A stretch of 64,000 nucleotides of DNA from Acidobacteriota bacterium (lineage in GTDB: Bacteria; Acidobacteriota; Terriglobia; Acidiferrales; UBA7541): the NCBI GenBank assembly GCA_013289585.1, contig JABCZR010000008.1, positions 62,001 to 126,000 of the forward strand, read 5' to 3'. The notes beneath the pieces were generated by a model. The model ran no database searches and was not told the origin of the DNA. It saw only the letters and a list, made by a program, of their open reading frames with translations. Numbering within the stretch: the first letter of the stretch is position 1; every line of letters starts with the position of its first letter. A program made the position numbers and the translations under genes. Shown one piece after another: positions 7,736 through 63,251 of this stretch.

Positions 7736-7804
7736 GGCCTGGGTATTTTAGGAAGAGAGCTCGCAGCAACGATTCAGTGAGCTGAAAACCGATTTTCGAT
7801 GAGA

Positions 7805-38374: not shown

Positions 38375-38404
38375 CTCACCGAAAAAGTGCATATTTTCGG
38401 TGCA

Positions 38405-38532
38405 ATCGCTCCTTTCCAAGCACGGGAGGCTCAGGCGTTTCCGCCCAAACCCTCAGTCCCAGCAAATTTCTTGGGACATCGCCCCAGCAGCCGTGGGCTA
38501 TCTCTCCCGTAGGCCGCAGGGGTCGGAGTTAC
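38405..38532 (-). ncRNA. Molybdenum-cofactor (Moco) riboswitch aptamer
   Basis: The minus-strand leader of moaA contains GCCTCCCGTGCTTGGAAAGG, closely matching the conserved 3' end of the Moco RNA motif (GCCUCCCGU...UGGAAAGG in the E. coli moaA leader as I recall it). Its CTCCCGT (38422-38428 on plus) pairs with ACGGGAG (38504-38510), forming the closing stem. Inside lie a GTCCCA/TGGGAC stem (38456-38477) and a GGCG-GAAA-CGCC tetraloop hairpin (38434-38445). A further hairpin (38377-38402) separates it from the terminator. Exact 5' boundary is uncertain. Confidence 0.85.
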
Positions 38533-38538
38533 CGCCTC

Positions 38539-38567
38539 AGTGTACGCCGGCCCTTTGACTTGTGCAA
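38539..38567 (-). promoter_or_regulatory. Predicted moaA promoter
   Basis: On the minus strand TTGCAC, exactly 17 bases, TACACT. The start of transcription near 38532 falls just upstream of the Moco aptamer. Confidence 0.7.
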
Positions 38568-41897: not shown

Positions 41898-42098
41898 TCA
41901 ACAGCAGCGGTTGGGCCGTGAATAGCGGCGGTTGAGTTGCTCCACGTAGAACTCCTTGGGTGTAAGAGCGCGGCAAGCGTTGCTTCGTGTCGCCGGCGAC
42001 CGAAGGTAGCGTTCGTAAGCGGCATCGCCACACCATTCGCGGAGGCCGCGCCAGAAGCGACGAAGCAGGCGCGCGGCGGTTTTGGTCGCGTGGCGCAT
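41898..42098 (-). CDS. YbdD/YjiX-type small partner of CstA
   Basis: A 66-residue protein (MRHATKTAARLLRRFWRGL, then YERYLRSPATRSNACRALTPKEFYVEQLNRRYSR and a final NRCC). The tyrosine-led core and Cys-Cys end match YbdD/YjiX (DUF466). In E. coli these small proteins are needed with CstA or BtsT for pyruvate uptake. Its ATG overlaps the cstA stop by one base (TGATG), so the two are translationally coupled, supporting a functional pair. Confidence 0.9.
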   Translation of the reverse strand: MRHATKTAARLLRRFWRGLREWCGDAAYERYLRSPATRSNACRALTPKEFYVEQLNRRYSRPNRCC

Positions 42099-44185
42099 CA
42101 GTCGTCTCCGTGGGCAGCGCCGGAGTAGTCCGCGGCCCACCGTGTGGCAACATAAGGCGATTCGTGCAGCACAGTTTCTTTGCGGCGGCTGAGAATCGCG
42201 TACCACTGCACGAGGGCTTCGAGGATCAAAACAAGGATCATGCAAGCAAGAACCCCAGTCACGGCGGCGTCGAGGCGCTGGTTGAAAATGAGGCGCTGCG
42301 TTTCGGCAATTTTTGCCGCGGGAATTGCTCCGGCAGCAACCTGCGCGGCGAGCGCATTGGCTTTCGAGAGGAAACCGAGGTTGGGATTCGAATCGAAGAT
42401 TTTCTGGTAACTCGCGGTCATAGTGACGAGAACAAGCCAGGCCATCGGCAACAACGTCATCCAGATCAACCGCACCCGTCCCATTTTAAGCAGGATGGTG
42501 GTGGCCACGACGAGCGCGACCGCCGCGAGCAACTGGTTCGAAATGCCGAAGAGCGGCCAGAGCGAATTGATTCCGCCGAGCGGATCGACCACGCCTTGAT
42601 ACAGGAAATAGCCCCACAGACCAACAATGATCGCGCTGGAAAGCAGAATCCCCGGCATCCATCCCGAACGGCCAAAGGGTTTCCAGACACGGCCGCCAAG
42701 TTCCTGAATCATGAATCGCCCGACGCGCGTGCCTGCGTCCAGAACGGTAAGAATAAAGAGCGCTTCGAACATGATTGCGAAGTGGTACCAGATGCTGAGG
42801 AGCCGCTCGCCTCCGATGGTGCTCGAGAAAATTTGCGCCATGCCGACCGCGAGCGATGGCGCGCCGCCGGCGCGATTCCAGAGCGTGATCTCGCCGACTT
42901 TGTGAGCGAGGTCCGTCATGGTTTGCGCTTGCAGCGTAAAGCCCCAGCCGCTGATGGTGGCGGCAGCCGCGTCCCCGGTTCCGCCGACGATGCCGGAAGG
43001 ACTGTTGATCGCGAAATAGACGCCAGGCGGCATTGCGCAGGCCGCGACCATGGCCATCACTCCGACAAACGATTCAAGAAGCATCGCTCCGTAGCCGATG
43101 AATCGCGCGTGGCTTTCGCGGAGAATCATTTTCGGCGTCGTGCCGGAAGATATCAGCGAATGAAATCCGCTGATAGCGCCGCAAGCGATGGTGATAAAGC
43201 AGAACGGGAAAACTTTGCCTGCGAAGACCGGGCCGGAACCGTCGATAAACCGTGTCAGCGGCGGCATTAGAACCTGCGGGCGCACGATGAGAATGCCAGC
43301 GGCAAGTGAAAAAATCGCGCCGGCCTTGATGAAGGCGCTGAGGTAGTCGCGCGGCGCCAGCAGCAGCCAAACGGGCAGCGCGGAAGCGGCGAAACCGTAA
43401 ACCATGATGGCGACCGCGAGGGCGACACCACCAAGAGTAAAAACTTGCGCCCAGGAGGGTGACTCAGCAACCCAGCGGCCAGCGACAACCGCGAAAAGCA
43501 CCAGCGACACGCCGATGAGCGAGGCTTCGAGAACGCGGCCGGGGCGGAAGTAACGCAGGTAAACGCCCAGCAACATGGCAATCGGTACGGTCATCGCCAG
43601 AGTAAAGGTGGCCCAGGGAGAGGACTTAAGCGCATTGACAACAACGAGAGCTACCACCGCCAGAAGAATGATGAGGATTGCCAGAACGGCAAGTTGCGCG
43701 ATGAAGCCGCCGCGCCGGCTGACTTCTTCTCGCGCCATTTCGCCGAGCGATTTGCCGTTGCGGCGAATCGAACAAAAAAGAATGACAAAGTCCTGCACGC
43801 AGCCGGCAAACGCGGCGCCTGCGATAAGCCATAACGTGCCCGGCAAATAACCGAATTGCGCGGCCAGCGTGGGGCCGACAAGCGGACCAGGGCCGGCGAT
43901 GGCGGCAAAGTGGTGGCCGAAAAGCACCCATTTGTTGGTGGGCACAAAGTCACGGCCGTCATCGTGGCATTCGGCGGGTGTGGCGCGATTGTCGTCTAAT
44001 GCAAGGAGCTTTGCCGCGAGGAATGCGGAATAGAACCGGTAGGCTACCAGATAGCTGCAAACCGCGGCCACAACGAACCACGTCGCATTAAGCGGCTCAC
44101 CGCGATCGAGAGCGATCTTGCCAAGCGCAGCCGCACCAAGCAGCGCGACTCCAAGCCAGACGATAATCGCGAGGACCCGCTTCAT
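42098..44185 (-). CDS. cstA: Carbon starvation protein CstA-type transporter
   Basis: A 695-residue membrane protein with about 16-18 hydrophobic helices. Characteristic parts are RFYSAFLAAKLLALDDNRATPAECHDDGRDFVPTNKWVLFGHHFAAIAGPGPLVGPTLAAQFGYLPG, VQDFVILFCSIRRNGKSLGEM and HSLISSGTTPKMILRESHARFIGYGAML. CstA relatives import pyruvate or peptides under carbon limitation. The start overlaps the S10 peptidase stop by 4 bases and the stop overlaps the YbdD start, forming a coupled three-gene operon. Confidence 0.95.
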   Translation of the reverse strand: MKRVLAIIVWLGVALLGAAALGKIALDRGEPLNATWFVVAAVCSYLVAYRFYSAFLAAKLLALDDNRATPAECHDDGRDFVPTNKWVLFGHHFAAIAGPGPLVGPTLAAQFGYLPGTLWLIAGAAFAGCVQDFVILFCSIRRNGKSLGEMAREEVSRRGGFIAQLAVLAILIILLAVVALVVVNALKSSPWATFTLAMTVPIAMLLGVYLRYFRPGRVLEASLIGVSLVLFAVVAGRWVAESPSWAQVFTLGGVALAVAIMVYGFAASALPVWLLLAPRDYLSAFIKAGAIFSLAAGILIVRPQVLMPPLTRFIDGSGPVFAGKVFPFCFITIACGAISGFHSLISSGTTPKMILRESHARFIGYGAMLLESFVGVMAMVAACAMPPGVYFAINSPSGIVGGTGDAAAATISGWGFTLQAQTMTDLAHKVGEITLWNRAGGAPSLAVGMAQIFSSTIGGERLLSIWYHFAIMFEALFILTVLDAGTRVGRFMIQELGGRVWKPFGRSGWMPGILLSSAIIVGLWGYFLYQGVVDPLGGINSLWPLFGISNQLLAAVALVVATTILLKMGRVRLIWMTLLPMAWLVLVTMTASYQKIFDSNPNLGFLSKANALAAQVAAGAIPAAKIAETQRLIFNQRLDAAVTGVLACMILVLILEALVQWYAILSRRKETVLHESPYVATRWAADYSGAAHGDD

Positions 44186-45741
44186 TTTGCCGGGCCCGTG
44201 GCCGCGCTGGACTTGATGAATTGCGCGATGTCCGCTTTGAGCTTGGTGAGCGACGCGGGATGCACGTACATCATATGGCCGGCTTCGTAGTACGCGCCGC
44301 TGAGATGGCCTCGCAGCGTCGGGTCAAGGCCGAGATGATCGAAGGTGTAGTCGGCGGCAAAAAACGGCGTAGCCAAATCGTAGTAACCTTTGGCGACAAA
44401 AACGTGCAGGAAGGGATTTTGCGTCATGGCGCTGCGCAACGTCTCCGCGACGTTGACGTAGCGGTTTTCATATGGCGCGTAGTTCCACGGCCGCACGCGG
44501 CCGGTGAGCACTTCGTAGGGCAAATCGCTGTCAAATTTCAATTCATTGCGAACGTAATCGTTCAGCATTCCGGAATATGGACCGATGATGGCGGCGATGC
44601 TGGGATCAAACTCCGGATGTTCACCGGCAGCATCGCGATCGATTCCCAGGAATCGCGCATCGATGCGGCCGGTGGTGCGGCGCTCGTTGCGCAAAAGCTG
44701 TTTCGTAAAGCGCTGAATCTCGATGCGCTGGTTGGTGAGCTCGATGTATTCCGGCGAAAGTCCTGTTAGACGCGCCAGCTTCTGCGTGATCTCGGTATGT
44801 TTCACCGCGGGGAACGCGTCACCGGCCATCAGCGCATCCGCGTACTCTCCCACCGCGAACCTGCGCGATTCTTCGACGGCTTTCTGCAGATCACCCTGCA
44901 AATCCGGCGGAAGTTTTTTGTGATACCAGGCGATCGCCGTGTACGTGGGCAAATAAAGGATGTACGGCAAGTCGTTGCCGGTATCGAATTCCGCCGTTTC
45001 GAAATTCAGAATGGCGGAAATCAGAATGATGCCGTTGAGATACATGCCATAGCGCTGCTGCAGATAACCGGAAAGGCCTGCGGCGCGCGTGGTGCCGTAG
45101 CTTTCGCCGGCAAGAAACTTCGGCGAGGACCAGCGCTTGTTGCGCGTGGCATAGAGCCGGATGAAATCCGCCACAGACTCGACATCTTCCGTGACACCGT
45201 GAAATTGCTTCGGCGCCTCGCCCGGAACGGCGCGGCTGTAGCCGGTGGAAACCGGATCGATGAAGACGAGGTCGGTGATATCCAGAAGCGAAGCGTCGTT
45301 GTCCACCAGCTTGTACGGAGGCGGAAGGAGCGCACCCGCATCACCCATCTGCACGCGGCGCGGGCCAAACGCGCCAAGATGCAGCCAAACGGACGCAGAG
45401 CCGGGGCCGCCATTGAAACTGAAGGTGATGGGGCGCTGGCCTGCGTCGCTGACATCGTCCTTTGTATAAGCGACATAAAAAATGCTGGCCTTGGGTGTCC
45501 CGTCTTCGAGCTTCAAAAGAATCGTGCCCGCGGTCGCGGTGTATTTGATCTCCTGTCCGCCAAGTTTGATGGAATGCTTGGATTGGACGATTTTTTCTTC
45601 GGGAACGGCCGGCTTCTTTTCTTCTTTCGGTTTTTCTGCCGCCTTTTCCGGCGAAGGCGTTGGCTGCTGTTGGGCAAAGCAGAGATTCGCTCCAAATAGC
45701 AGCAGCACGAGGAAACTCACAAGTCGAAGCGAACACCTCAT
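44182..45741 (-). CDS. Exported S10 serine carboxypeptidase
   Basis: A 519-residue secreted peptidase. The signal peptide is LRLVSFLVLLLFGANLCFA, followed by a Lys/Pro/Glu-rich linker. The alpha/beta-hydrolase core has FSFNGGPGSASVWLHLGAFGPRRV, IDPVSTGYSRA and the nucleophile motif AGESYGT (Ser214); the catalytic Asp region is YYDLATPFFAADYTFDHLGL and the His region is YYEAGHMMYVH. AAAGGAG precedes ATG 45741; the frame runs upstream to 45930 without conserved sequence. Coupled to cstA, so peptide breakdown may feed that transporter. Confidence 0.93.
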   Translation of the reverse strand: MRCSLRLVSFLVLLLFGANLCFAQQQPTPSPEKAAEKPKEEKKPAVPEEKIVQSKHSIKLGGQEIKYTATAGTILLKLEDGTPKASIFYVAYTKDDVSDAGQRPITFSFNGGPGSASVWLHLGAFGPRRVQMGDAGALLPPPYKLVDNDASLLDITDLVFIDPVSTGYSRAVPGEAPKQFHGVTEDVESVADFIRLYATRNKRWSSPKFLAGESYGTTRAAGLSGYLQQRYGMYLNGIILISAILNFETAEFDTGNDLPYILYLPTYTAIAWYHKKLPPDLQGDLQKAVEESRRFAVGEYADALMAGDAFPAVKHTEITQKLARLTGLSPEYIELTNQRIEIQRFTKQLLRNERRTTGRIDARFLGIDRDAAGEHPEFDPSIAAIIGPYSGMLNDYVRNELKFDSDLPYEVLTGRVRPWNYAPYENRYVNVAETLRSAMTQNPFLHVFVAKGYYDLATPFFAADYTFDHLGLDPTLRGHLSGAYYEAGHMMYVHPASLTKLKADIAQFIKSSAATGPAK

Positions 45742-45908
45742 AGGCGACAGGCTCCTTTGTAGGCAAACATGAATCACAATTTTGCGACGTGCGGCATCGT
45801 ATGCGAGAGTGTGCGCAGCGTCAATCGCTTCCAATTGCCCGCGCAAGACGGTTTCCCCAGCAATTCCTGTTGCGCCGCAGGAAATCACGGTTAGAATGCC
45901 GACCACAA

Positions 45909-47843
45909 ATGAAAACTTGGCCTGAGGCACTTTCCATTTGCCGTGCTTGGCGCGGCGCTCTCGCTTCGCTCCAACTTTTTGCCGCGCTCACGTTCGCAGC
46001 CACCTGGGGCGCGGCACAGCAAAAAGACGATCTGCCCCATCCGAAAACGGTCGAGGAATTAAAGAAAGCAATGAAGGACGTTCTCGACAAGGAGCACGTG
46101 CCGGGAGCGGGAGTCGCGCTGATCGCCAACGGCGAACTCCTTTGGTGCGGCGGAATCGGCAAGGCGGATATCGCCGCGAATCGCGACGTCACCTGCGATA
46201 CGGAGTTTCGCGTGGGCTCGGTCAGCAAGACGTTCGTCGCGCTGGCGCTGCTGAAATTGCAGGAGGAAGGAAAAATCAATCTTTACGCGCGGCTGCAGGA
46301 TGTCGCGCCGGAAATCCCCGCGAAGAATAAATGGGAAGCCACGCATCCCGTGCGCATCGTGAACCTGCTCGAGCATACGGCCGGCTTTGACGACATGGAA
46401 TTCAGCGAAGTTTACAATCTGCACGATCGGTATGATTTTCCACTGCTGGATGTCTTCAAGCGATTTCAGAAACCGCAGATTGCACGCTGGCCGCCGGGAA
46501 CGCGCATGTCTTATTCAAATCCCGGGAACGCTGTGGCTGGTTACCTGATCGAAAAAGTCTCGGGAAAACCGTTCGATCAATACATCCGTGAATCTTTTTT
46601 GCGGCCTCTTGGCATGAAAAAGGCGGATTATCCTTTCACCGACGTCGTCAAGCCCTTTCTTGCTACTGCCTACGAAGGCAATCCTCCGAAAGCTCTCGGA
46701 TATCCGTCCATTTACTTGCGTCCGGCGGGAGACCTCAAGGCTTCTCCGGGCGAACTCGCAAAACTGGTGCAATTTCTTCTGCGCCGCGGGAAAACAGAGG
46801 AAGCGCAACTGCTGAAGCCGGAATCGATTCTGCGGATGGAAACGCCGGAAACCACGCTCGCCGCAAAAAACGGGCTGCGGCTCGGCTATGGGCTGGCGAA
46901 CTATTCGAGCGTCGAAGGCGGAGTCGTGACGCACGGCCACAACGGCGGCATCGATGGGTTCCTCTCCACGTATCGCTACATGCCGGAACAGGACTGGGGT
47001 TACGTCATCCTGCTCAACAGCTCCAGTTCGAGCCGCGCGCTGACGGAAACAAACCGGTTGGCGATCGATTTTCTTTCGAAGGATTTTTCCAAGCCGCGGC
47101 AGCCCGCCACCAGCCCGGCGGCCGCCGAGCTGGAAAAGCTCGCGGGTTTCTACGCACCGCGAGCACCGCGCAACCAGATGTTCGCTTTCCTGGATGATTT
47201 GGTGGGAGGCACGCGCATCCGCGTGATCAACGGCAAATTGGCGCGCTCCGATTTATTCGGCCAGCCTGAACCGCTACTCTGCGTCGGCAAGAACCTGTTT
47301 CGCGGCGAAAAAGAGCCCGAGGCAACAACAATCTTTTTCACCAATGAATCCGGAGGAAGGGCGCTCGCCGGCAACGGGCTAAATGGAATCCCGTACAGTG
47401 AACGAGGCAATCTGGTCCTGCCTTACGTTCGAATCGCCCTGCTGCTTCTTTGCGTGTTCGTCATGCTGACAACTCTTCCGTTCGCGCTGGTCTGGATTGT
47501 CCGCAAACTCTTCGGCGCCATGAAGGAAGTGCGCCACTTGCCGGTGAGGGTGCTCCCGCTCCTTGCGACGCTGGCGTTTTTGCTCGTGCCGGTTTGCTTC
47601 GCGCAGCTCAATGGTCCGCGAATCGGAACATTCAACGCCTGGACCGCAGGGATCTTCCTCGGAACATTTGTGTTCCCACTCTTTTCCGTCATCGGCCTGA
47701 TGCTCGTCTTGCGCGTGCCAAAATCCGAGATTCACCGCGGCGTTCGAATCCACTCGCTCCTGGTCTCCTCCGCCTGCTGCATGCTCACCGGTTTCCTCTG
47801 GTCCTGGCATCTGCTCGCCCTTCGCCTCTGGGCCACGCAATGA
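45909..47843 (+). CDS. Class C beta-lactamase-fold serine hydrolase with membrane C-terminus
   Basis: A 644-residue exported enzyme. After a hydrophobic N-terminal signal (ALASLQLFAALTFAATWG) comes the penicillin-binding fold: the SxxK motif S104-V-S-K107 (RVGSVSKTF), Y202-S-N (MSYSNPGNAVAGYLIEKVSG) and the HGHNGGIDGF motif. The last ~140 residues contain four hydrophobic helices (PYVRIALLLLCVFVMLTTLPFALVW, LPLLATLAFLLVPVCFA, GIFLGTFVFPLFSVIGLML, SACCMLTGFLWSWHLL). Likely a D-amino-acid or ester hydrolase rather than a drug-resistance enzyme. It is divergent from the S10-cstA operon. Confidence 0.9.
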   Translation: MKTWPEALSICRAWRGALASLQLFAALTFAATWGAAQQKDDLPHPKTVEELKKAMKDVLDKEHVPGAGVALIANGELLWCGGIGKADIAANRDVTCDTEFRVGSVSKTFVALALLKLQEEGKINLYARLQDVAPEIPAKNKWEATHPVRIVNLLEHTAGFDDMEFSEVYNLHDRYDFPLLDVFKRFQKPQIARWPPGTRMSYSNPGNAVAGYLIEKVSGKPFDQYIRESFLRPLGMKKADYPFTDVVKPFLATAYEGNPPKALGYPSIYLRPAGDLKASPGELAKLVQFLLRRGKTEEAQLLKPESILRMETPETTLAAKNGLRLGYGLANYSSVEGGVVTHGHNGGIDGFLSTYRYMPEQDWGYVILLNSSSSSRALTETNRLAIDFLSKDFSKPRQPATSPAAAELEKLAGFYAPRAPRNQMFAFLDDLVGGTRIRVINGKLARSDLFGQPEPLLCVGKNLFRGEKEPEATTIFFTNESGGRALAGNGLNGIPYSERGNLVLPYVRIALLLLCVFVMLTTLPFALVWIVRKLFGAMKEVRHLPVRVLPLLATLAFLLVPVCFAQLNGPRIGTFNAWTAGIFLGTFVFPLFSVIGLMLVLRVPKSEIHRGVRIHSLLVSSACCMLTGFLWSWHLLALRLWATQ

Positions 47844-52285: not shown

Positions 52286-54517
52286 CTAGTCGCCGGCGAC
52301 GGCTTCGGCGGCCTTTTCGGCGGATGGCGTGCTCGCAGGAGCGCCGTTCCCGTTTGAATGGCCGTTGCCGTTCGAATGAGCGGCGCCATTGCCATTGCCG
52401 CTCGCAGGAGCGATGGTGACCGGCTTGCCGGCATTCGCGAAATTAGCTGGCACCGCTTTGGCAATGTCGCTAACCGTGCCGATCTGCACGACCGTCGGCT
52501 GGGGCTTCTTCAGCACCAACTCTTCGTATATCGCGCGGACTTTGGCCTGCTCTTCGTAAGCCTTCTTGCGGCGAGCGCGGTCTTCTTCGGCCGCGGTCAC
52601 GGGAATGTCGTGCTCCAGGTGGCGCACGCGAGCGGCGTCATCGGCGTCAATCTTCAGCGAATGCTCAAAGCTCTGCAGGTTGACGCTCTTGCCCTTGGCA
52701 TAGATCTCGTGCTTGCCGTGGTTCTTGTACCACTCGGCCACGGTCGCGTTCTTATGCATGTTCTCGATGATCTGACGCCATCCCACACCGGTGTTGTACG
52801 CACAGAAGGAAATCTCGCCCTGCTGTGTGGCGTAAGGGATGATGCACATTTCCGTGCGGCGGAAGTCATAGTTGAACAGATCCTGGAACCACATTCCCGC
52901 GATGAACAGGAAGTTCCACGGATCCTGCTGGCGGCGCTTCATGGCATCTTCGTAAGTGCGGTCCGGAGAGGTCTTGCCGTATTTCTTCTCCGCGCCCTTG
53001 GTCAGCGCCCAGGTCTTGTCAAACTTCTTGAAGAGGTCGTACAGCTTCAGACCCTTCGGCCCCTGGAACGGGTGGTAATTCTTCAAGAGGGCCATGGCCA
53101 TCATGAAGTTCGAAAAATTCTTGCCGCGAGCCGCGTCGGTAATCGCCGTCACGTCTTTCGTCAATTGCTCGGCGTCCAGGAAGCGCGGAACGGGAGCCCA
53201 TTCCTTCGTTTCCTTGTTGATCATCAGCGCCGTGCCCACGCCGCAGTTCGGGTGGCAACCGCAGGAGAGCGAGCCCCAGTTGGACTCTTGCCCCTTGACC
53301 ATGTCCGAGAATCCGGCAAACGTGCTGATGAACGAAATCGGGAACCAGTCGCGCGTCGGCTCGACCTTGCCCACCTGGGTGCTGACGTCCTTCGCCAGAT
53401 GCGAAAGCGTGTAGCGCTGGCGCAGGCGGCGTTCCGGAGTAATGTCTTCATCGCGGCCGGTAAACGAAACCGGCTGGAAGCTGACGAAGGCGATCTTCTT
53501 GGGGTTCTCCATCGCGAACTTCACGATGGTGCCGACCTGGTCGTTGTTTACGTTGTTGACGATGGTCACGACCAGCACGATTTCAATGCCCGCTTCGTGC
53601 ATGTTTTCGATGGCGCGCAGCTTCACGTCAAACAAGTTGCCGATCTGGCGGTGGCTGTTGGCATCGTTGCCGATGCCGTCGAACTGCAGGTACGCGTAGC
53701 GCATGCCCGCTTCGAACGCCTTCTTGCAGAACTCCTTGCTCTTGGCGAACTCGATGCCGTTGGTCGCGGCCTGCACGCTGTTGTAACCGATCTTGCGCGC
53801 ATAGGCGACCGCATCAAAGAAATAAGGGCTCATGGTCGGCTCGCCGCCGCTGAACTGCACGGACATCTGCCGGCGCGGCTTGATCCTCAGAGCGTTGTCC
53901 AGGATTTCCTTGATCTCTTCCCAGCCCAGCTCGTGCACATAACCAACCTGGTTGGCGTCCATGAAGCAGGGATCGCACATCATGTTGCAGCGGTTAGTCA
54001 GGTCCACGGTCAGCACAGACCCGCGGCCATAGCGAACGGTCGAGGAGCCATGCTTGTGAAGGTCTTCGTCGTTGTGCGCGGGAATATCGCGGCCGGGGAA
54101 CTGCTTCTCGATCCAGTTGAGGAACTTGGAATCGACGGCCATCATGTCTTCGTAGTGGCCGTGGAGCGGGCAATCCTTGACCATCCAGACTTGCCCATCG
54201 CGCTCGATGATCTGCGCCTTGATCTCGCCGACCTTCTCATGCATCAGGTCGCGCCAATCCTTCTTCCCCGCGATGATCGATTCGCGCGCTTCCTTCACGC
54301 ATGCCGGACAAAGAGAGTCAGTCTGCCGCGGGAAGCCCAGCGTCGGCTTGGTCTTCTCCCAGGACTTAAGCAGCGGCTTATCGGACCATTTTGGTGTAAC
54401 GGACGGATTGGGATTGCGCTTGTTGAAATACTGGATCGTGTCAAATGTGATTCCAGCCGCTTTGCACAGAACCCAATCAAACGTCCTTGCGAGCTGAGTG
54501 CCTACTTGATTCGGCAT
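52286..54517 (-). CDS. Tes/Mss-like radical SAM enzyme (candidate membrane-spanning lipid synthase)
   Basis: A 743-residue radical SAM protein. Cys pairs at C70-PAC73 and C116 (KDCPLHGH) form an N-terminal metal site; the SAM cluster motif is C177-NMMC181-DPC184; GGEP lies at 224-227. Further Cys at 419, 421 and 425 (SCGCHPNCG) and near 580-596 (MCIIPYATQQGEISFCAYN) suggest auxiliary clusters. The layout matches archaeal tetraether synthase Tes and its bacterial homologues, which join lipid tails by C-C bonds. The C-terminal ~60 residues are disordered (SNGNGHSNGNG). Product assignment is inference: acidobacteria contain iso-diabolic acid, and this enzyme is a good candidate. Imperfect G-rich repeats lie 180-270 bases upstream. 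Confidence 0.82.
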   Translation of the reverse strand: MPNQVGTQLARTFDWVLCKAAGITFDTIQYFNKRNPNPSVTPKWSDKPLLKSWEKTKPTLGFPRQTDSLCPACVKEARESIIAGKKDWRDLMHEKVGEIKAQIIERDGQVWMVKDCPLHGHYEDMMAVDSKFLNWIEKQFPGRDIPAHNDEDLHKHGSSTVRYGRGSVLTVDLTNRCNMMCDPCFMDANQVGYVHELGWEEIKEILDNALRIKPRRQMSVQFSGGEPTMSPYFFDAVAYARKIGYNSVQAATNGIEFAKSKEFCKKAFEAGMRYAYLQFDGIGNDANSHRQIGNLFDVKLRAIENMHEAGIEIVLVVTIVNNVNNDQVGTIVKFAMENPKKIAFVSFQPVSFTGRDEDITPERRLRQRYTLSHLAKDVSTQVGKVEPTRDWFPISFISTFAGFSDMVKGQESNWGSLSCGCHPNCGVGTALMINKETKEWAPVPRFLDAEQLTKDVTAITDAARGKNFSNFMMAMALLKNYHPFQGPKGLKLYDLFKKFDKTWALTKGAEKKYGKTSPDRTYEDAMKRRQQDPWNFLFIAGMWFQDLFNYDFRRTEMCIIPYATQQGEISFCAYNTGVGWRQIIENMHKNATVAEWYKNHGKHEIYAKGKSVNLQSFEHSLKIDADDAARVRHLEHDIPVTAAEEDRARRKKAYEEQAKVRAIYEELVLKKPQPTVVQIGTVSDIAKAVPANFANAGKPVTIAPASGNGNGAAHSNGNGHSNGNGAPASTPSAEKAAEAVAGD

Positions 54518-56836: not shown

Positions 56837-59800
56837 TCAATGCACTGAGAATTTCACCGGCGCCACTACGGCCGCGGCTTCAGGATTGTAGTAATCGTAC
56901 AGCCTCGAAGGCGCGCTGAGAGATTCCATCCGGTAGCGCAGCCGATAGTCAAAGCTGAAACTGGTTCCTCCCGCCGCAGGCCAGATGTAGAAGACCACCC
57001 TGTCCGGCTGCACTTCGTAGCTGCCGCCTCCCGCCTCCAGCGAAGCGCGATCCACTTCCGCTCCCGGAGGCAGCCCCACCTCTCCCAGCATCATTCCGTA
57101 TCCTTTGAACCCGATGCGCTCCGCTTCCACTGTGCAGTGAACCGTGTCCCCCATTTTGGCTTCAATTCGGTCATATTGCACTTTCCAGCGCAGCGCGCGA
57201 TTCTCGCCGCTCAGCAGATTTTCTTCGCTCGTCGCGGAAGATTTCCCCCATGGCAGGTAGTAGCTGGTGAAAACCGTTGCATTTATCGCCTGCGCACTTG
57301 CGTCACTCAGGATTTCAATCTTGGTTTCCTCTTTTTCAAGCGCGTCCGCCAGCGCCACTGTGATGGGTCCCGTCGCTTCTTTGGGATCGGGCAGAGACAC
57401 TGTCTTGAACGTGCGCCCGTTCACTTTGATCGTAGCTTGTGTCGCGCTCGCCCCACCTGCCGTTACCGGCATGCTCGCAATCATGGCTTCGATTACATTT
57501 TGCGTCGCCTGCGTCGAGTACCACACCCCGTACCGATCTTTATGCGCCAGCAAATACTGTAGTCCGCGGCCGGCCATTTCTTGCGCATCGCGGTCCGCAT
57601 GCTGCGCTTCCATTTTCGTTAATGCTTCCACGGCCAGCGCCGTCACTTCCAGCCGGCCCGCGCTCCCCCATCCGTAGAACGGCGAGGTATTCGCTTCCAG
57701 GTTCCAGTACATCGCGTCGCCCTCGCGGTGCGCCAGTTGCTCCAGCAGTAAGTGCGCATTCTCAATGTGCGCGCTCCTCCCGCTCTCCACCGCGGCCAGC
57801 GAGTAGTTCCCGACGAGATACGCATCGCTCCAGGAATCGATTCTCTGTTCCAAGAAATGCAGCGCCGCATCCACTGCCGCGCGCAACTGCTGCTCTTCCT
57901 TCGCTCGCTCTTCTTTGCTGACTGAATTCTCCGTTGCTTCGATTCCCGCTTCCGCCAGGGTGCGCGCAATGTACGCCGTCGAATTCGCGTCTTCCATTTC
58001 CTTCTGGATATCCCAGCGGTACATTCCCCACACTCCTGGCCGGATCTGGTGCGCCAGCAGATAATCGCGCAATCGCCGCCGCACATTTTCGTCCACGGGA
58101 ACAAACTCTCTCGCGCCGCTCAAAAATCGCAGCGCATACGCAGTCAGCGCAGGGCTCGCCGACCACTTGTACCAATATCCCAGCCCGCCATCGAGATTCT
58201 GCATTTCGGCGAGCTTTCGAACGCCTTCCTCCACTGCCGCACGAGCCTGCGCGGCCACCTCCGAGCGCGGATTCTCGCCCCCCGGTTTGTCCTGCCCTGC
58301 TTTTTTCAAAACTTCCAGTGCCATCAAGCTGACGTACGCCGTGGACGTCACCTGCTCGGCGCAACCCGCCGGTCGCCGCCCGATTCCTTCCATCGCATCG
58401 AGAATATGCGCCATCAAATTCGGATAAATGCGCAGCTCCGCTTCGATCGATCCGCTGATTGCCGTTTCCGGCACGCGAACGCTCATTGCGCCCGCTTCCG
58501 CCGTCAGCACCCGGCTCGTGCTGAACGAAATCTCCTGCCCGTTGGGATGAACAAGCAGCTCGCGTTCCACCGCATCACCCGTCGACCCATTCCGCGCCGT
58601 CACACGCTGCTTTGCCTCTTTCGCGCTGTGGATCGCCCGGTAAGTGAACACCGCGGTCGCGTCTCCGTTGGCCGGGACCGTCAACTTCTGCTGTGCCGCC
58701 GCCAGATTCAAAAACCACGGCTCGGCCTGCAGCTCCGCGAGAATGGTTTGCGGCTTCTCCATGTAGTTGCGCAGCACCACTGGCTGGCTGATCTGGTCTC
58801 CTTCCGTCAGCACTTTCGGCGGATCGCTTTCAACAAAAAATGGCTGGAAACTCCGTAACTCTTTTTCCGCCACGCCGATCTGCCCGCCAACCGTGGACGC
58901 TATCACCGACATCTTCCACGCCGTGATGTTGTCGCCCATGGGAAATCGGATGTGCGCGTGCCCGCTCTGGTCCGTGATTACTTCCGGCCGCCACACCAGC
59001 GTTTCCGGGAAATACTTCCGCAGCTTCGGCGTGAACAATGGTTTCTCCGCAAGTGTCGAACCAGGAGCCTGTTTCCCGCTCATCGCCAGACCCGGCGCAA
59101 GCGCTACCGAAGTTGCCAGTTCCGACCTGGTCGTCTGCAGGTCCGCTATCGCTGCCTCCACCGTCACCGTTTCCGCAGCGAGGCCCAACTGCAATGTGAA
59201 ATTTACCTTAGCCGTATCGCCTGCTTGCACCGGCACGAGCAGCATGGTGCTCGTTGTGAATCCGATTGCCACACATCTCACTTCATAAATCCCCGCCGGG
59301 AGATTAGAGAAGCGATACGTCCCTGAAGGATTGGTGCTCTCCGTATACTCCACCCCGGCTTCGGCCACTGCGGTGACCGTCGCACTTGGCACTACAGCTC
59401 CTGAAGGATCGGTGACCACTCCCGTGATGGCTCCCCGCCCGCCTGCTAACGGCTTCTGTTCCTTCGCGGGCATCGCGCGAATATCCTTGCTGCTTCGTTC
59501 CGCCGTGACGCGGCTGAATTCAGCAACGGCAAACGCTCGGCTTACATCGATCTCGGGCCCTTCCCCGTGGCTTGAGACCGTCACGTATTCAACCTCCTGG
59601 GTTACCGGAGTGATTTGCGTTCCGGTATGCGATTCTCCCGCGGCATCTGTGTAAGTCCGCACATTGACGCGGTCGCTATACCGGCTCTGCTTGCTGAAGG
59701 TGAAGTAGTACGGACGGCCCCACGGATCGGTCAATTGTTCCGGAGTCAGTTTTGCCCTGGCCAGGACGGGCTTCAGATCTTCATCGCTCTTGGGAAATGT

Positions 59801-62800
59801 ACCCGTCAGCGCGTACTGCTCCGCCAGCGCCCGGGCCAGTGCTTCACTCTCTTTCGTGAAATACTGCACTGTGGAAGTCCACTCCGGCACGTCGTCCCAG
59901 GAGTGACGCGCTTTGCTGTCGAAGATTCCGTCCGGTCCTGCGCTGCTCACCAGGATGCGGTACTGGTTGCGCGTAATGTCAAACTCATAGCGGTACAAGT
60001 TCCCCCAAGGATCGCGCAGCGCATCCAGATTGATCCCTCGTCTCTGCATCTCCTCGCGCAGCGTTGGATAATCCCGGATATATTTTCCCGTCCCCGCCGC
60101 ATACTCTCGCGCGACAACATTGATCTCTCTTCCCGTTTTGCCGAAGTAAGGCCACGTTATCTCATCCGCTACAAAATCGTCTGCCGTCCCCGCCTTCTTG
60201 TCCGTTCCGTTGCTTACCAGATCCAGCACCGTTCTCGGCCCAGCCACTGAGAAAACCGCGCGAAACGCCACTCCCCACGGATCGCGGACTTCATCAAACT
60301 CCATTCCCGCGGCCCTAAGCGCCGCGCGCACTTCCGCTTCGTCCCCCGGATATTCGCCATGCGTTTCGGCCCAGGCCACCAAGGCCTTGCGCGTGTCTTT
60401 CAGCTCGCTTTTCAGTGTCGCAGCAAATTCAGTGCTCGCGCCCGCTGCATCCCATCCCGACGCCGCAAATCCGTTGCTTGCCCCCAACCAGCGGTCGTAT
60501 CCCGTGCGCACTAGCGCCTCCGCCACCAGATCCAGATCTTCTGGAAACGGTTTGCTGGCATCCAGGCTGAGCAAATCCCGATACGTGATTCCTCCGATGC
60601 TTTGGCGGTAGTAATAATCCAGATAGTCGTAGACAGAGAATCCGTAACCGCGTCCAAACTCCTCGTCGGTGCGCACCCGCTCTGCGACCGCCCGGTCGTA
60701 AACCAAGACTCCCAGCGCGCTTTCCGCCGGCTTGCCGTCCGGCGCGGACACATCCAGGTCGCTGGACACCATTTCGCCCGGGTTGTACACCGTCTTTTTC
60801 ATCCCCACCTTGATGTCTAGTTCTTCTTTCGCGGGATACAGGACTTGCGCACTGCCGCTGAGCGTCACTTCTCCATTGTCCTTTGCCGTCAAGCAGTACG
60901 CGGTAACGTGGATTACTCCATGAAATCGCGGTTCGAACGGAATCTTGACGGTTCCCCGCCCCGCGCTCAATTTCGCCACCGTCGACCGCAGCATTCCATC
61001 CGCGCTCCACACGCTGACAATAGCTTCATCCGTTCTCGCGTTTGTTTCGATTTCCACCTGGATGGAGTCGCCGGGATGGTAAAGCGTGTGGTTCGGACGC
61101 ACGCGAAGGTATTCCGGCGTCACATCGGCGTTGATCTCTTCCTGTAGCACGCCCTGACGCCCTTCCTTGTCTCTCGCCTCCAGTTCGAGCATAGCGTTCC
61201 GCGAAGTGGGCTGCGCCGTTGGACCGTAGTAATTCCCATACGTGCGCCAGCGCCCATGACTTACAAGAATCACTTGTTCCGGGATCGGTGCAATTTCAGC
61301 TCTCCCGACGCCATAACGATTGGTGTGAAAATGCCCCAGCGCGATCTTCTTGGTCTTGTCGTACTGGTTCCCTCGTTCATCTTCCTCGATCGGCATCGCT
61401 GCGCTGACTTCTCCGTCCGCGGACACCGGTGTTCCATCCGCATACGAAGTCGTCACATAGAAAGTGGCATTGCCGCCTGTCAGAATGGAGCTGGCATCCA
61501 GGAGATACACGTGAATCGGTTGTGCTGTCAGCCGCACATTGAAGCGCCGTTGCTCCGTCCGGCCCGTTGACGCGTCCGTCACATAAGCGGCAAGCGTTAC
61601 GTCCTGGAAGCGCTGGTAGTTGTTTTCCTGGAAATTCTTGAACTCTTCGCTGAGATCGATTTTCGCGTGGTAGTGCCCGTCGGCATCCAACTCTCCCGTG
61701 ACGTCGCCCGATTCTTCCGCCTCCCATTTCTGGTTCTTGTAATTCCATTGCCGTCCCTGTTGCTTCACCACTCTCACTTTTCCGCGCTGCACGGGCTTCC
61801 CGAAGAGGTATTCCGCGTGCACATCCACAACGGCATTTTGCCCCGGCATGTAGTAAGTGCGGTCAGGTTCCACTTTCACTTCGTAGGTGGGGAGCTCGTA
61901 CCGGCTGACCCGCACGGTGCTTTCCGCCAGCGCCTCTCGGTTGTAGTCGTCCTTTTCGGATTCCAGTTTTGCGCTCAACCGCTGTTGTCCGAGTTGCAGC
62001 AGTTTGGGAATCTCCCAGTCGGCGGTGGCGATCCCGAACGCCGACGTCGTTACTTTCTTCTGGAATTGCTCCTGCCCTTCTTCGTCCTCTATGGTCAGGT
62101 CAATCTTTTTTCCAGCCAGTGTTCGCTTGTCCGGTCCGAACGCCATCAGCCGTACATGCACGGTTTGTCCCGGCTGGTACAACGGTTTGTCCGTACTCAT
62201 CGTGATTCGCGGCGGCGGCGGCCCAGGAAATTCAAATTTGATCGAGGTCTCTTCGTTGAACCCGCCGCGCACGACGGTTGCAGTAACTTCACCGTCGTCG
62301 TCCTCCGGTTTCGCCGGCAATTGGAATGTCACCACCGCGTTGCCGTCGGCGTCCGTGGTGACCTCCCGTTTTACGATCTTGTCCTCGTCGTTCCCGATCT
62401 GCATCGTCACCTGAACCGTTTGTTTCGCCAGCGGTTGCCCTTGCGGAGAACTCAGCACTCGCAATCGGACCGGATAGTGCGATCCGCGTTCGACCTTTTC
62501 GGCCGCTGCCATTCGAATCTCGAATCCGTCCTGAATCATTCGTCCGAACTGCACCACACCCCCGGTCACCGGGAGCCCGGATTCCGCGCTCGGAAAAAAT
62601 ATGTACAGCAGCCTGTACCAGCCCAGAAGCGAGGGGGAAGTACTTGGCAATTTGGCCGCTGCCCAATCGAGCTTTTCCACCGTTTCTCCCTGTTGCTCCA
62701 CAAACGTCCCGGAAGTGGACGCTGACACCCAATCATTCTGATCCAGTAGTTCGATCGCGAACGATCCTGAAACCGGTTTGTCCGTTGGATTGAATATCGC

Positions 62801-62950
62801 AAATTCAAGAATGGGATTTGGCAGCAGATGAAACCGGATTCGCGCTTCGTCCACTCGCAGGGCGTTCGCCGCTTTTTCCTGCGCCCCGCCGGTTCCCGCC
62901 AGAAAACAGAACAATAATCCGGCAACTAGCCATCTTCGGATGGTTATCAT
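56837..62950 (-). CDS. Alpha-2-macroglobulin-family protein with inserted pseudopilin-like repeats
   Basis: A 2037-residue exported protein. A signal peptide (RWLVAGLLFCFLAGTGGA) is followed by macroglobulin beta-domains (MSTDKPLYQPGQTVHVRLMAFGPD). The thioester motif is intact: PAGCAEQ with Cys at about 1530 and Gln at 1533, then the alpha-toroid. Two unusual inserts lie between: three pseudopilin-like modules (~842-925, 953-1016, 1030-1097), each with a DPWG core (VRDPWGVAF, LRDPWGNLYRY, LTDPWGRPYYF) like the GspG C-terminus, and a carboxypeptidase-regulatory beta-sandwich (~1165-1265, GVVTDPSGAVVPSATVTAV). Bacterial macroglobulins trap proteases in the periplasm. No bait-region function can be read from sequence. 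Confidence 0.92.
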   Translation of the reverse strand: MITIRRWLVAGLLFCFLAGTGGAQEKAANALRVDEARIRFHLLPNPILEFAIFNPTDKPVSGSFAIELLDQNDWVSASTSGTFVEQQGETVEKLDWAAAKLPSTSPSLLGWYRLLYIFFPSAESGLPVTGGVVQFGRMIQDGFEIRMAAAEKVERGSHYPVRLRVLSSPQGQPLAKQTVQVTMQIGNDEDKIVKREVTTDADGNAVVTFQLPAKPEDDDGEVTATVVRGGFNEETSIKFEFPGPPPPRITMSTDKPLYQPGQTVHVRLMAFGPDKRTLAGKKIDLTIEDEEGQEQFQKKVTTSAFGIATADWEIPKLLQLGQQRLSAKLESEKDDYNREALAESTVRVSRYELPTYEVKVEPDRTYYMPGQNAVVDVHAEYLFGKPVQRGKVRVVKQQGRQWNYKNQKWEAEESGDVTGELDADGHYHAKIDLSEEFKNFQENNYQRFQDVTLAAYVTDASTGRTEQRRFNVRLTAQPIHVYLLDASSILTGGNATFYVTTSYADGTPVSADGEVSAAMPIEEDERGNQYDKTKKIALGHFHTNRYGVGRAEIAPIPEQVILVSHGRWRTYGNYYGPTAQPTSRNAMLELEARDKEGRQGVLQEEINADVTPEYLRVRPNHTLYHPGDSIQVEIETNARTDEAIVSVWSADGMLRSTVAKLSAGRGTVKIPFEPRFHGVIHVTAYCLTAKDNGEVTLSGSAQVLYPAKEELDIKVGMKKTVYNPGEMVSSDLDVSAPDGKPAESALGVLVYDRAVAERVRTDEEFGRGYGFSVYDYLDYYYRQSIGGITYRDLLSLDASKPFPEDLDLVAEALVRTGYDRWLGASNGFAASGWDAAGASTEFAATLKSELKDTRKALVAWAETHGEYPGDEAEVRAALRAAGMEFDEVRDPWGVAFRAVFSVAGPRTVLDLVSNGTDKKAGTADDFVADEITWPYFGKTGREINVVAREYAAGTGKYIRDYPTLREEMQRRGINLDALRDPWGNLYRYEFDITRNQYRILVSSAGPDGIFDSKARHSWDDVPEWTSTVQYFTKESEALARALAEQYALTGTFPKSDEDLKPVLARAKLTPEQLTDPWGRPYYFTFSKQSRYSDRVNVRTYTDAAGESHTGTQITPVTQEVEYVTVSSHGEGPEIDVSRAFAVAEFSRVTAERSSKDIRAMPAKEQKPLAGGRGAITGVVTDPSGAVVPSATVTAVAEAGVEYTESTNPSGTYRFSNLPAGIYEVRCVAIGFTTSTMLLVPVQAGDTAKVNFTLQLGLAAETVTVEAAIADLQTTRSELATSVALAPGLAMSGKQAPGSTLAEKPLFTPKLRKYFPETLVWRPEVITDQSGHAHIRFPMGDNITAWKMSVIASTVGGQIGVAEKELRSFQPFFVESDPPKVLTEGDQISQPVVLRNYMEKPQTILAELQAEPWFLNLAAAQQKLTVPANGDATAVFTYRAIHSAKEAKQRVTARNGSTGDAVERELLVHPNGQEISFSTSRVLTAEAGAMSVRVPETAISGSIEAELRIYPNLMAHILDAMEGIGRRPAGCAEQVTSTAYVSLMALEVLKKAGQDKPGGENPRSEVAAQARAAVEEGVRKLAEMQNLDGGLGYWYKWSASPALTAYALRFLSGAREFVPVDENVRRRLRDYLLAHQIRPGVWGMYRWDIQKEMEDANSTAYIARTLAEAGIEATENSVSKEERAKEEQQLRAAVDAALHFLEQRIDSWSDAYLVGNYSLAAVESGRSAHIENAHLLLEQLAHREGDAMYWNLEANTSPFYGWGSAGRLEVTALAVEALTKMEAQHADRDAQEMAGRGLQYLLAHKDRYGVWYSTQATQNVIEAMIASMPVTAGGASATQATIKVNGRTFKTVSLPDPKEATGPITVALADALEKEETKIEILSDASAQAINATVFTSYYLPWGKSSATSEENLLSGENRALRWKVQYDRIEAKMGDTVHCTVEAERIGFKGYGMMLGEVGLPPGAEVDRASLEAGGGSYEVQPDRVVFYIWPAAGGTSFSFDYRLRYRMESLSAPSRLYDYYNPEAAAVVAPVKFSVH

Positions 62951-63251
62951 TGGACTCCCCACCACAGGTTCTCTCCGACCAGCGTATCAGCACGTCACTT
63001 TTTCGCGGCGGGCTGTTCCCCATCCGCCAGTAAGCAGACGGCCACGCTCCGTTCCGCAACTTCTTGCGCAGCGCCCGCACCTCTTGTTTTCGATTGGTGG
63101 AACTTCGACCCGGGATGGATTAAAAACTTGGATGCAGGGTCTGCAGAAATGGAAGTTTAGGCTACTCAAATACTTCTCAGGTATGCCGTTTGAGGCGTGG
63201 GCTTGGGGTGGCCCCTAATTCCTGATCTCTGGTCCCTGATTTCTTGCAATT
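62951..63251. other. Gap without recognised gene
   Basis: About 300 bases between the start of the alpha-2-macroglobulin gene and the end of ridA. It should contain the macroglobulin promoter; I see no convincing hexamers, hairpin or ORF. A short direct repeat of ATCAGG lies near the ridA end. Confidence 0.4.

Follow-up and report, generated by a model that had tools for sequence, protein, structure and literature searches.

In many Acidobacteriota iso-diabolic acid is a major lipid of the membrane, and brGDGTs, which serve as temperature and pH proxies, are presumed to be built from it. Archaeal Tes joins two lipid tails end to end. The question raised by the locus analysed here, a gene for a radical SAM protein within a 64,000-nucleotide stretch of acidobacterial DNA (hereafter the window), is whether its product is a coupling enzyme of this kind. 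The idea of a coupling role for acidobacterial Tes homologues has been published before: passages of PMC8941075 describe 456 bacterial homologues, Acidobacteria included, and passages of PMC10087280 propose two homologues of Solibacter usitatus for brGDGT coupling and call the coupling enzyme of that pathway, as of 2022, unknown. Mss of Thermotoga and Clostridia, by its description, likewise couples bacterial acyl chains tail to tail, and has since been shown as the coupling enzyme in other bacteria (passages of PMC11604127). The acidobacterial homologues of Zeng 2022 and Halamka 2022 embody the same brGDGT idea and probably overlap with the genes described here; the N-terminal cluster loss, the CxCHxxC motif and the division into types A and B set out below go unmentioned in the passages of those papers drawn on here. 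The present analysis offers one defined candidate, near-universal in its class, for membrane-spanning lipid synthesis, with specific residues named.

The gene and its relationship to archaeal Tes

The open reading frame list of the window places the gene at positions 52286..54517 on the minus strand (743 aa, ATG start, stop codon included in the coordinates), with a GGAGG-like stretch, noted by eye, directly upstream of the ATG; a promoter scan at the gene found none, with 1.1 expected by chance. The radical-SAM and HMPTM zinc-ribbon domains of Pfam both match the product above their cut-offs, in agreement with the first-pass annotation, which had described a 743-residue radical SAM protein. 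Its match to archaeal Tes/GDGT-MAS (PDB 7tol) has an E-value of 7.5e-60, far past chance, and a profile match gave 1.3e-71. The profile scoring that the annotation had proposed as a check gave a divided answer: 483 of the 486 positions of the NCBIfam Tes model NF045702 are covered and the match is clear, but the score of 321 bits lies under the equivalog cut-off of 450, which weakens a coupling role; three scanned proteins of groups C and D (the canonical acidobacterial Tes-like proteins) scored 573-619 bits. An AlphaFold model of the protein (pTM 0.74, mean pLDDT 66.5) aligned with the GDGT-MAS structure 7tom at a VIA-align Z of 23.1 (rmsd 3.9, 436 residues aligned, model residues 61-602), the next family being MoaA at Z 14.9, and Foldseek returned the GDGT-MAS fold at ranks 1 and 2.

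In three trees rooted on TrsS-like proteins (group E) the window protein nested inside Tes, within a long-stemmed acidobacterial clade that we call type A, a group that was named only once the first tree was known; the outcome that the annotation had held against its own proposal, a position outside the Tes clade, did not occur. The first tree comprised 80 rows, the second 44 of those and the third 42; for the 44-row tree the long branches D_L176, E_L200 and E_L182 were removed together with E_L177, group A was reduced from 45 rows to 15 and group B from 6 to 4. As the closest outgroup to type A the trees placed three C rows (L166, L167, L168). With the 44-row tree, an AU test against canonical Tes as a clade excluding types A and B gave p 0.002. 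The first trees retained two of the three columns of a lost N-terminal motif (see below), and the 42-row tree repeated the analysis with residues 146-166 of the window protein cut from every row; without this diagnostic stretch and two haloarchaeal rows (L199, L201) the AU p rose to 0.029, with the same placement of A and B, and this rise counts against the coupling reading. Because its score is under the Tes cut-off and it lacks a metal-site motif that the solved enzyme has, the protein is filed here as a Tes-derived variant and is not Tes proper; the Tes-like identity claimed earlier stands as regards tree placement, fold and C-cluster positions, and falls short on that cut-off and that motif.

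Relative to MJ0619, the archaeal enzyme of 7tol and 7tom, the window protein has longer N- and C-termini. A predicted N-terminal helix (residues 4-34, 54416..54508, minus strand; AlphaFold secondary structure) belongs to an extension preceding the rubredoxin site, which measures 69 residues here and 8 in MJ0619; the median number of residues before the first rubredoxin Cys is 75 in group A, 46.5 in C and 24 in D, all upper bounds that use the first-possible start codons in the loci. The helix is mildly amphipathic over residues 3-21, and it might, as a guess, touch the membrane. At the other end an Asn/Gly-rich tail (residues 690-743, 52289..52450, minus strand) is real, as the annotation had said, but is not the unusual addition that it was taken for: it varies between relatives, the stretch beyond residue 620 measuring 0 to 136 aa in the type-A alignment (contig ends may have cut some of these proteins short), residues 689-743 have a pLDDT below 50, and it resembles a commonplace disordered terminus.

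Metal sites of type A

Ligand conservation was assessed in 125 distinct type-A rows, the window protein included, condensed from 152 ORFs that were 560 aa or longer and showed 45% identity or more; members of the 200 collected that were shorter, more distant or truncated at a contig end did not enter. Common to type A and MJ0619 are the fold, the radical SAM motif, the rubredoxin-like site and the C-cluster positions with Met439 and Tyr459. The rubredoxin-like or zinc-ribbon domain (residues 62-126, 54140..54334, minus strand; PF23545 and alignment to MJ0619) contains C70, C73, C116 and H119, kept in 125, 125, 125 and 124 of the 125 rows, with MJ0619 C33/H36 aligning to C116/H119. CPAC at 70-73 and CPLHG at 116-120 are read directly, as had been reported, and give a CX2C...CX2H site whose C73-to-C116 spacing is 43, wider than in MJ0619 and than the 21 of groups C, D and E. 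The radical SAM core spans residues 169-335 (53513..54013, minus strand; PF04055, 69.8 bits, residues 173-335), and its CxxxCxxC at 177-184 (53966..53989, minus strand), likewise located correctly at first pass, supplies the predicted ligands of the SAM-binding [4Fe-4S] cluster, C177, C181 and C184 (C98, C102 and C105 of MJ0619), in 125/125 type-A proteins.

Type A departs from MJ0619 at the N-terminal auxiliary [4Fe-4S] cluster. Residues 150-166 (54020..54070, minus strand), where a second CxxxCxxC would be expected from the alignment, form a short His-containing loop, and the MJ0619 positions C73, C77, C80 and His align to a gap, H156 and S159, both of which are invariant in type A. The motif occurs in 0/125 distinct type-A proteins as opposed to 14/14 canonical rows (MJ0619 included), among which the 13/13 rows of groups C and D all retain it. 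Judged from the sequences, the auxiliary motif is lost in type A, and a cluster might still be held by other residues; types A and B are not alone in this, as haloarchaeal rows L199 and L201 also lack the motif. What the other metal sites do is described as not clear by the authors of the GDGT-MAS structure (passages of PMC9433317), and if type A works, a natural deletion experiment for the N-terminal cluster has already been done.

The C-terminal catalytic cluster is matched in full by alignment: C338, C455 and C470 of MJ0619, taken to be the conserved Cys of that domain (C455, not C456, being the conserved one), correspond to C425, C558 and C572, and the labile Met439 corresponds to M542. 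The Cys set that the annotation placed at 419-425 is confirmed by direct reading of C419, C421 and C425 in CGCHPNC (53243..53263, minus strand); C419, C421, H422 and C425 are each present in 125/125 type-A proteins, so that an invariant CxCHxxC sits at the catalytic cluster, its C419, C421 and H422 being additions relative to MJ0619. The rest of the site (residues 538-576, 52790..52906, minus strand) comprises M542, C558 and Y562 (Tyr459), found in 125/125, and C572, found in 123/125 (one X, one gap). No Cys at all lies at 580-596, where further sets had been claimed; the last two are C558 and C572. Met439 is the ligand that the structure paper names, but its conservation speaks only weakly, because the M439A variant of MJ0619 is still active (PMC9433317, same passages), and since AlphaFold confidence is low at both ligand regions (141-194 and 545-584) we claim no distances between Cys419 or Cys421 and the catalytic cluster. 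Type B, which is also encoded in the source genome, has lost two C-cluster positions, an indication that relatives in this group change chemistry.

Distribution and gene neighbourhood

Type A is carried by 194/199 genomes of its class and, with two candidates scored per genome, by 179/395 genomes of the phylum; match numbers per genome from two-candidate scans were disregarded. With all candidates scored, it alone spans the Tes profile in 12/12 hand-picked genomes of one family of the same class (f11) and in 3/3 hand-picked genomes taken as Chloracidobacterium-like, the 15 together standing for two lineages of presumed iso-diabolic acid producers. Genomes of a further, putatively Vicinamibacteria-like group (f66) carry it too, and among 12 genomes with a C protein 8 are without type A and 4 (G025, G037, G073, G203) have both. 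Iso-diabolic acid is common in acidobacterial subdivisions 1, 3 and 4 (PMC4644332), accounts in six Edaphobacter strains for 11.8-30.4% of fatty acids (PMC11354219) and occurs in Chloracidobacterium, which has two chromosomes (PMC12816986; passages in each case). The genome distribution of type A fits membrane-spanning lipid synthesis. Some genomes, such as G094, hold two type-A copies.

The neighbourhood was discarded as a functional clue: across 80 loci (L047-L126) the commonest neighbour, an immediately upstream ORF without a Pfam match, recurs in 28, and no lipid operon was found around the type-A genes of these loci, which weakens a coupling role. Type-A genes have a SPASM radical SAM gene as immediate neighbour in L038, L042 and L084, and canonical Tes has one next to it in L191 and L192; as a general partner its product was rejected, being present in 5/33 chosen genomes at E 1e-60 and absent from the source genome. 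The window protein itself gave no SPASM match in the Pfam scan, and Gms, the GMGT synthase, is described as SuiB-like and separable from Tes (passages of PMC11186832). A search for ether-lipid genes covered PF09989 (DUF2229), which we take to be part of Ger/PlsA; a profile search did not find it in the source genome and did find it in 4/14 control genomes, and for that reason the product in the source organism may be ester-linked.

Proposed reaction and competing explanations

We predict, at a probability of about 0.7, that the window protein, as a Tes-derived enzyme, joins two iso-branched lipid tails at their ends to give iso-diabolic acid in intact lipids; for type A at large, tail-to-tail coupling of iso-C15 lipids is the likely function. 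Homology, fold, placement inside Tes, near-invariant C-cluster positions and genome distribution argue for this coupling. Following MJ0619, the CxxxCxxC cluster, whose motif is present, would cleave SAM to a 5'-deoxyadenosyl radical. An iso-C15 acyl chain in a hydrophobic channel would then lose a hydrogen from its terminal methyl, and the carbon radical could, again as in MJ0619, be stored through a C-S bond to the C-terminal cluster, for which the positions C425, C558 and C572 with M542 are seen; a second SAM cleavage would activate the other chain, after which the two carbons would join. Electron entry would have to bypass an N-terminal [4Fe-4S] cluster, and we guess that the retained rubredoxin site might serve.

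Not every Tes homologue couples well, since some Halobacteria have one and no GDGTs, and MA_1114 yields only trace macrocyclic archaeol (passages of PMC8941075); bacterial homologues are described as unconfirmed (passages of PMC11868695). It is conceivable, if unlikely, that type A is a radical SAM enzyme acting on lipid tails without a tail-to-tail bond, through mid-chain methylation, cyclisation, desaturation or cross-linking, and that an Mss-type enzyme makes the iso-diabolic acid. The missed Tes cut-off, the long stem and altered cluster set of type A, and the loss of two C-cluster positions in its derived sister type B, which also weakens the coupling reading, would all suit such a reaction, as would the separate validation of Mss as a bacterial coupling enzyme by expression (passages of PMC11604127); an Mss-like gene that escaped the searches is conceivable. 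Against this alternative, the 125 type-A proteins keep the three C-cluster Cys, Met439 and Tyr459 at 98-100%, and the 15 hand-picked genomes of the two presumed producer lineages contain no second protein spanning the Tes profile.

A non-lipid substrate such as a cofactor or peptide, as with TrsS, MoaA or SkfB, we consider very improbable. The TrsS profile (NF045646), with which a radical SAM core and a zinc ribbon are shared, does match the window protein across the radical SAM half, and MJ0619 originally carried the annotation pterin methylase (passages of PMC9433317), but the score is 217 bits against a cut-off of 490 and the protein falls outside group E, a clade whose TrsS-like name rests on one scanned member, L178, itself under 490 at 309 bits. 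In the trees the TrsS-like rows cluster apart (support 99/95 in the 44-row tree and 100/100 in the 42-row tree), and the three C-cluster Cys are missing from 11 of the 14; the other three, L199, L200 and L201, the first and last of them from haloarchaeal plasmids, have the Cys and lack the Met. Ten plasmid records at 24-29% identity had been considered as relatives and were set aside, the four retrieved all belonging to the TrsS-like group; in 3/3 annotated records among these the TrsS-like gene directly precedes a methyltransferase gene, whereas 0/7 scanned window ORFs around the type-A gene encode a methyltransferase. A protein-isoaspartate methyltransferase-like ORF does lie 1-2 kb away in 5/80 related loci (by eye). 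The near-complete coverage of the Tes profile and a GDGT-MAS fold match far above the others likewise speak against a non-lipid substrate. That the gene is a degenerate or non-functional relic is scarcely credible: one auxiliary cluster motif is gone, but the frame is open, the ligand positions are intact, and 61-97% orthologue identity together with presence across the class indicates purifying selection.

More tentatively, and at rather less than even odds, type A may be a distinct, old Tes-like class adapted to aerobic Acidobacteriota, without the N-terminal [4Fe-4S] cluster, with a His and two additional Cys next to the catalytic cluster (possibly a different ligand set), and acting as the iso-diabolic acid synthase of the phylum; type B would have arisen within it, lost catalytic-cluster ligands too, and taken up a different radical reaction on lipid tails. 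A tie to oxygen use is only suggestive: COX1 is present in 18/18 chosen type-A genomes and in 11/16 chosen canonical-only genomes (Fisher p 0.016, for hand-picked genomes and a statistic that ignores phylogeny), the canonical-only label deriving from best E-values with two candidates per genome, and 8 of the 16 having been searched again with all candidates scored.

Relationship of the window protein to tetraether lipid synthase

The 743-residue reading frame at 52286-54517 on the reverse strand is present as the first-pass annotation described it, and direct reading places its Cys residues at 18, 70, 73, 116, 177, 181, 184, 264, 419, 421, 425, 558 and 572. The Cys sets previously noted at 177-184 (177, 181, 184) and 419-425 (419, 421, 425) were therefore seen, but the last set lies at 558 and 572 and not at 580-596. 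The protein carries Pfam radical SAM and HMPTM zinc ribbon domains, and its top NCBIfam model is the tetraether lipid synthase Tes. The proposed Tes likeness held for best model and for coverage (483 of 486 positions), but the score of 321 bits fell below the curated cut-off of 450. The same model was matched by all 51 proteins of alignment A1. By far the best solved-structure match was the archaeal GDGT-MAS MJ0619 (PDB 7tol/7tom; E 7.5e-60 with the single sequence, 1.3e-71 with a profile). For an AlphaFold model (pTM 0.74, mean pLDDT 66.5), 7tom gave the top structural alignment, with Z 23.1 and rmsd 3.9 Å over 436 residues; the MoaA family came next (Z 14.9, 243 residues), and Foldseek was in agreement. 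The window protein is homologous to Tes. Because two features that define Tes were tested, and the motif of the N-terminal auxiliary cluster proved absent and the score sub-threshold, we file it as a Tes-derived variant and not as a Tes, one that probably works like Tes.

The window spans bases 62001-126000 of contig 8 in a 4.73 Mb assembly that is 97% complete. The nearest named loci, in MAGs titled Acidobacteria (some ‘gp2’, or subdivision 2) and ‘Candidatus Acidiferrum’, encode proteins 89-95% identical. Elsewhere in the window are a molybdenum/tungsten cofactor riboswitch (38393-38540, reverse strand; RF01055, 75.2 bits), a CstA carbon starvation protein (42098-44185, reverse strand; 827 bits) adjoined by a serine carboxypeptidase-like gene (44182-45930), and a 2042-residue alpha-2-macroglobulin-like protein with a carboxypeptidase-regulatory domain (56837-62965, reverse strand), inside which lies a short match to type II secretion protein G.

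Metal sites and phylogenetic position

The MJ0619 ligands published in PMC9433317 served as our alignment reference. In the rubredoxin site C70/C73 form the first pair and C116/H119 correspond to MJ0619 C33/H36, the radical SAM cluster residues C177/C181/C184 correspond to C98/C102/C105, and in the C-terminal domain C425/C558/C572 align with the conserved Cys C338/C455/C470, M542 with Met439 and Y562 with Tyr459. Opposite C73, C77 and C80 of the MJ0619 N-terminal auxiliary cluster are a gap, H156 and S159. We counted residues in 125 distinct type-A proteins (at least 45% identical to the window protein, which is among them). Every one of them has C70, C73, C116, C177, C181, C184, C419, C421, H422, C425, M542, C558 and Y562. 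H119 occurs in 124 and C572 in 123 (the others being one X and one gap), and C419, C421, H422 and C425 make up an invariant CxCHxxC. A CxxxCxxC motif was sought between residues 120 and 172 and found in none of the 125. Conservation of the Met is no proof of function, since the M439A variant of MJ0619 is reported to remain active (PMC9433317). In type A both termini are longer than in Tes, a helix being predicted in the N-terminal one, and the rubredoxin spacing is doubled (43 versus 21). Electrons would enter without the N-terminal cluster.

The clustering proposed earlier was borne out in a quick tree of 80 rows and a careful one of 44. Rooted on group E, both trees place types A and B (the paralogue type) inside Tes next to the group C proteins L166, L167 and L168, and in the 44-row tree the fork uniting A and B with these three has support of 100/99. 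Constraining canonical Tes (MJ0619 and groups C and D) together without A and B cost 34 log units there (AU p 0.002). That tree retained two of the three N-terminal motif columns; a repeat with the whole motif stretch and two haloarchaeal rows removed gave the same placement and again 100/99, but now at a cost of only 13 log units and with the AU p up to 0.029. As the AU test was framed only after the 80-row tree had been seen, and the A + B stem is long (1.04 and 0.89), the placement may carry long-branch effects, and the nesting, though it has good support, is not certain. Since all 14 canonical rows (MJ0619, 10 of group C and 3 of group D) possess the N-terminal motif along with all five C-domain residues, the motif would on this tree have been lost on the A + B stem.

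L166, L167 and L168 are canonical-type Acidobacteriota proteins and form the nearest outgroup to type A; the N-terminal motif is present in each of them, and their C338 regions are already type-A-like, making them useful intermediates. The motif is also missing, apparently separately, from L199 and L201, distant radical SAM proteins of haloarchaeal plasmids in which all three conserved Cys of the C-domain are present; a methyltransferase gene comes after each. The name TrsS-like for group E comes from one member that was scanned, L178, which scores 309 bits where the TrsS cut-off is 490, and a methyltransferase gene follows the E-type gene in three annotated plasmid records.

Distribution and the proposed link to iso-diabolic acid

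At a cut-off of E <= 1e-170, type A is present in almost every genome sampled from the class (194 of 199, the five without it being four of family f7 and one of f94), and in 179 of 395 sampled from the phylum. Thirty hand-picked genomes were scored with the Tes model, giving 285-326 bits for type A; three scanned proteins of groups C and D, the canonical Tes-like proteins of other Acidobacteriota, gave 573-619 bits, over the cut-off. In all 12 same-class genomes of family f11, probably Acidobacteriaceae (subdivision 1), type A (312-324 bits) is the sole match spanning the profile, one (G122) having an additional 232-bit match to its first 310 positions. In three 3.7 Mb two-contig genomes, presumably Chloracidobacterium, type A is likewise accompanied only by partial matches, which cover positions 2-315 at 224-258 bits. 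Within the thirty, no match above 64 bits occurred in the three f32 genomes (likely Holophagaceae) or in G049, G082 or G044.

Published records of iso-diabolic acid cover subdivisions 1, 3 and 4 (PMC4644332), six Edaphobacter strains at 11.8-30.4% of fatty acids (PMC11354219), and Chloracidobacterium, which has a two-chromosome genome (PMC12816986); neither measurements for subdivision 2 nor a list of non-producers turned up in the literature searched. The type-A distribution fits a role in membrane-spanning lipid synthesis. This role, put forward in the first-pass annotation, is not a new idea, as Zeng et al. described 456 bacterial Tes homologues, Acidobacteria included, and remarked that tail ends are alike in iso-branched and isoprenoid lipids (PMC8941075), and Halamka et al. 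proposed two Solibacter homologues for brGDGTs (PMC10087280). The latter paper, from 2022, calls the iso-diabolic acid pathway enzyme still unknown, and PMC11868695 regards the role of bacterial homologues as unproven. Type A would couple iso-C15 lipids tail to tail, and the product in this organism may be ester-linked.

Both kinds occur in one organism, G025, where a canonical Tes-like gene is the divergent neighbour of a type-A gene (locus L191, 4517-6217 reverse and 7052-9091 forward). A SPASM radical SAM protein directly adjoins type-A genes in three loci and canonical Tes in two (L191, 2512-4155 reverse; L084, 6655-8301 forward; L038; L042; L192). It is AhbD/NirJ-like (TIGR04545, 249 bits, below cut-off) and could be a lipid partner of the Gms kind.

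The type-B paralogue

The window's own genome also encodes a type-B protein (contig 1, 214369-216060, forward strand; loci L010 and L196), 44% identical to the window protein and scoring 248 bits on the Tes model. The 6 rows compared, this paralogue and its relatives, retain both the rubredoxin site and the radical SAM motif. Their C338 position is His, Gln or Arg, C455 is replaced by Ser and Tyr459 by Val; all six keep the C470 position and four of them the Met. Because the MJ0619 mechanism stores a carbon radical on the C-terminal catalytic cluster, type B should not form the same C-C bond. Its occurrence in several relatives suggests that it is probably functional, with a different chemistry. 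Neither a Tes clade lacking the N-terminal cluster nor the type-B loss was described in the literature searched, which left out the main paper on Mss (the bacterial membrane-spanning lipid synthase) and most subscription papers and is for that reason weak evidence that either is new. By eye, the type-B neighbours in this genome resemble single-strand DNA-binding protein, sigma factor and ImmA/IrrE-type peptidase reading frames.
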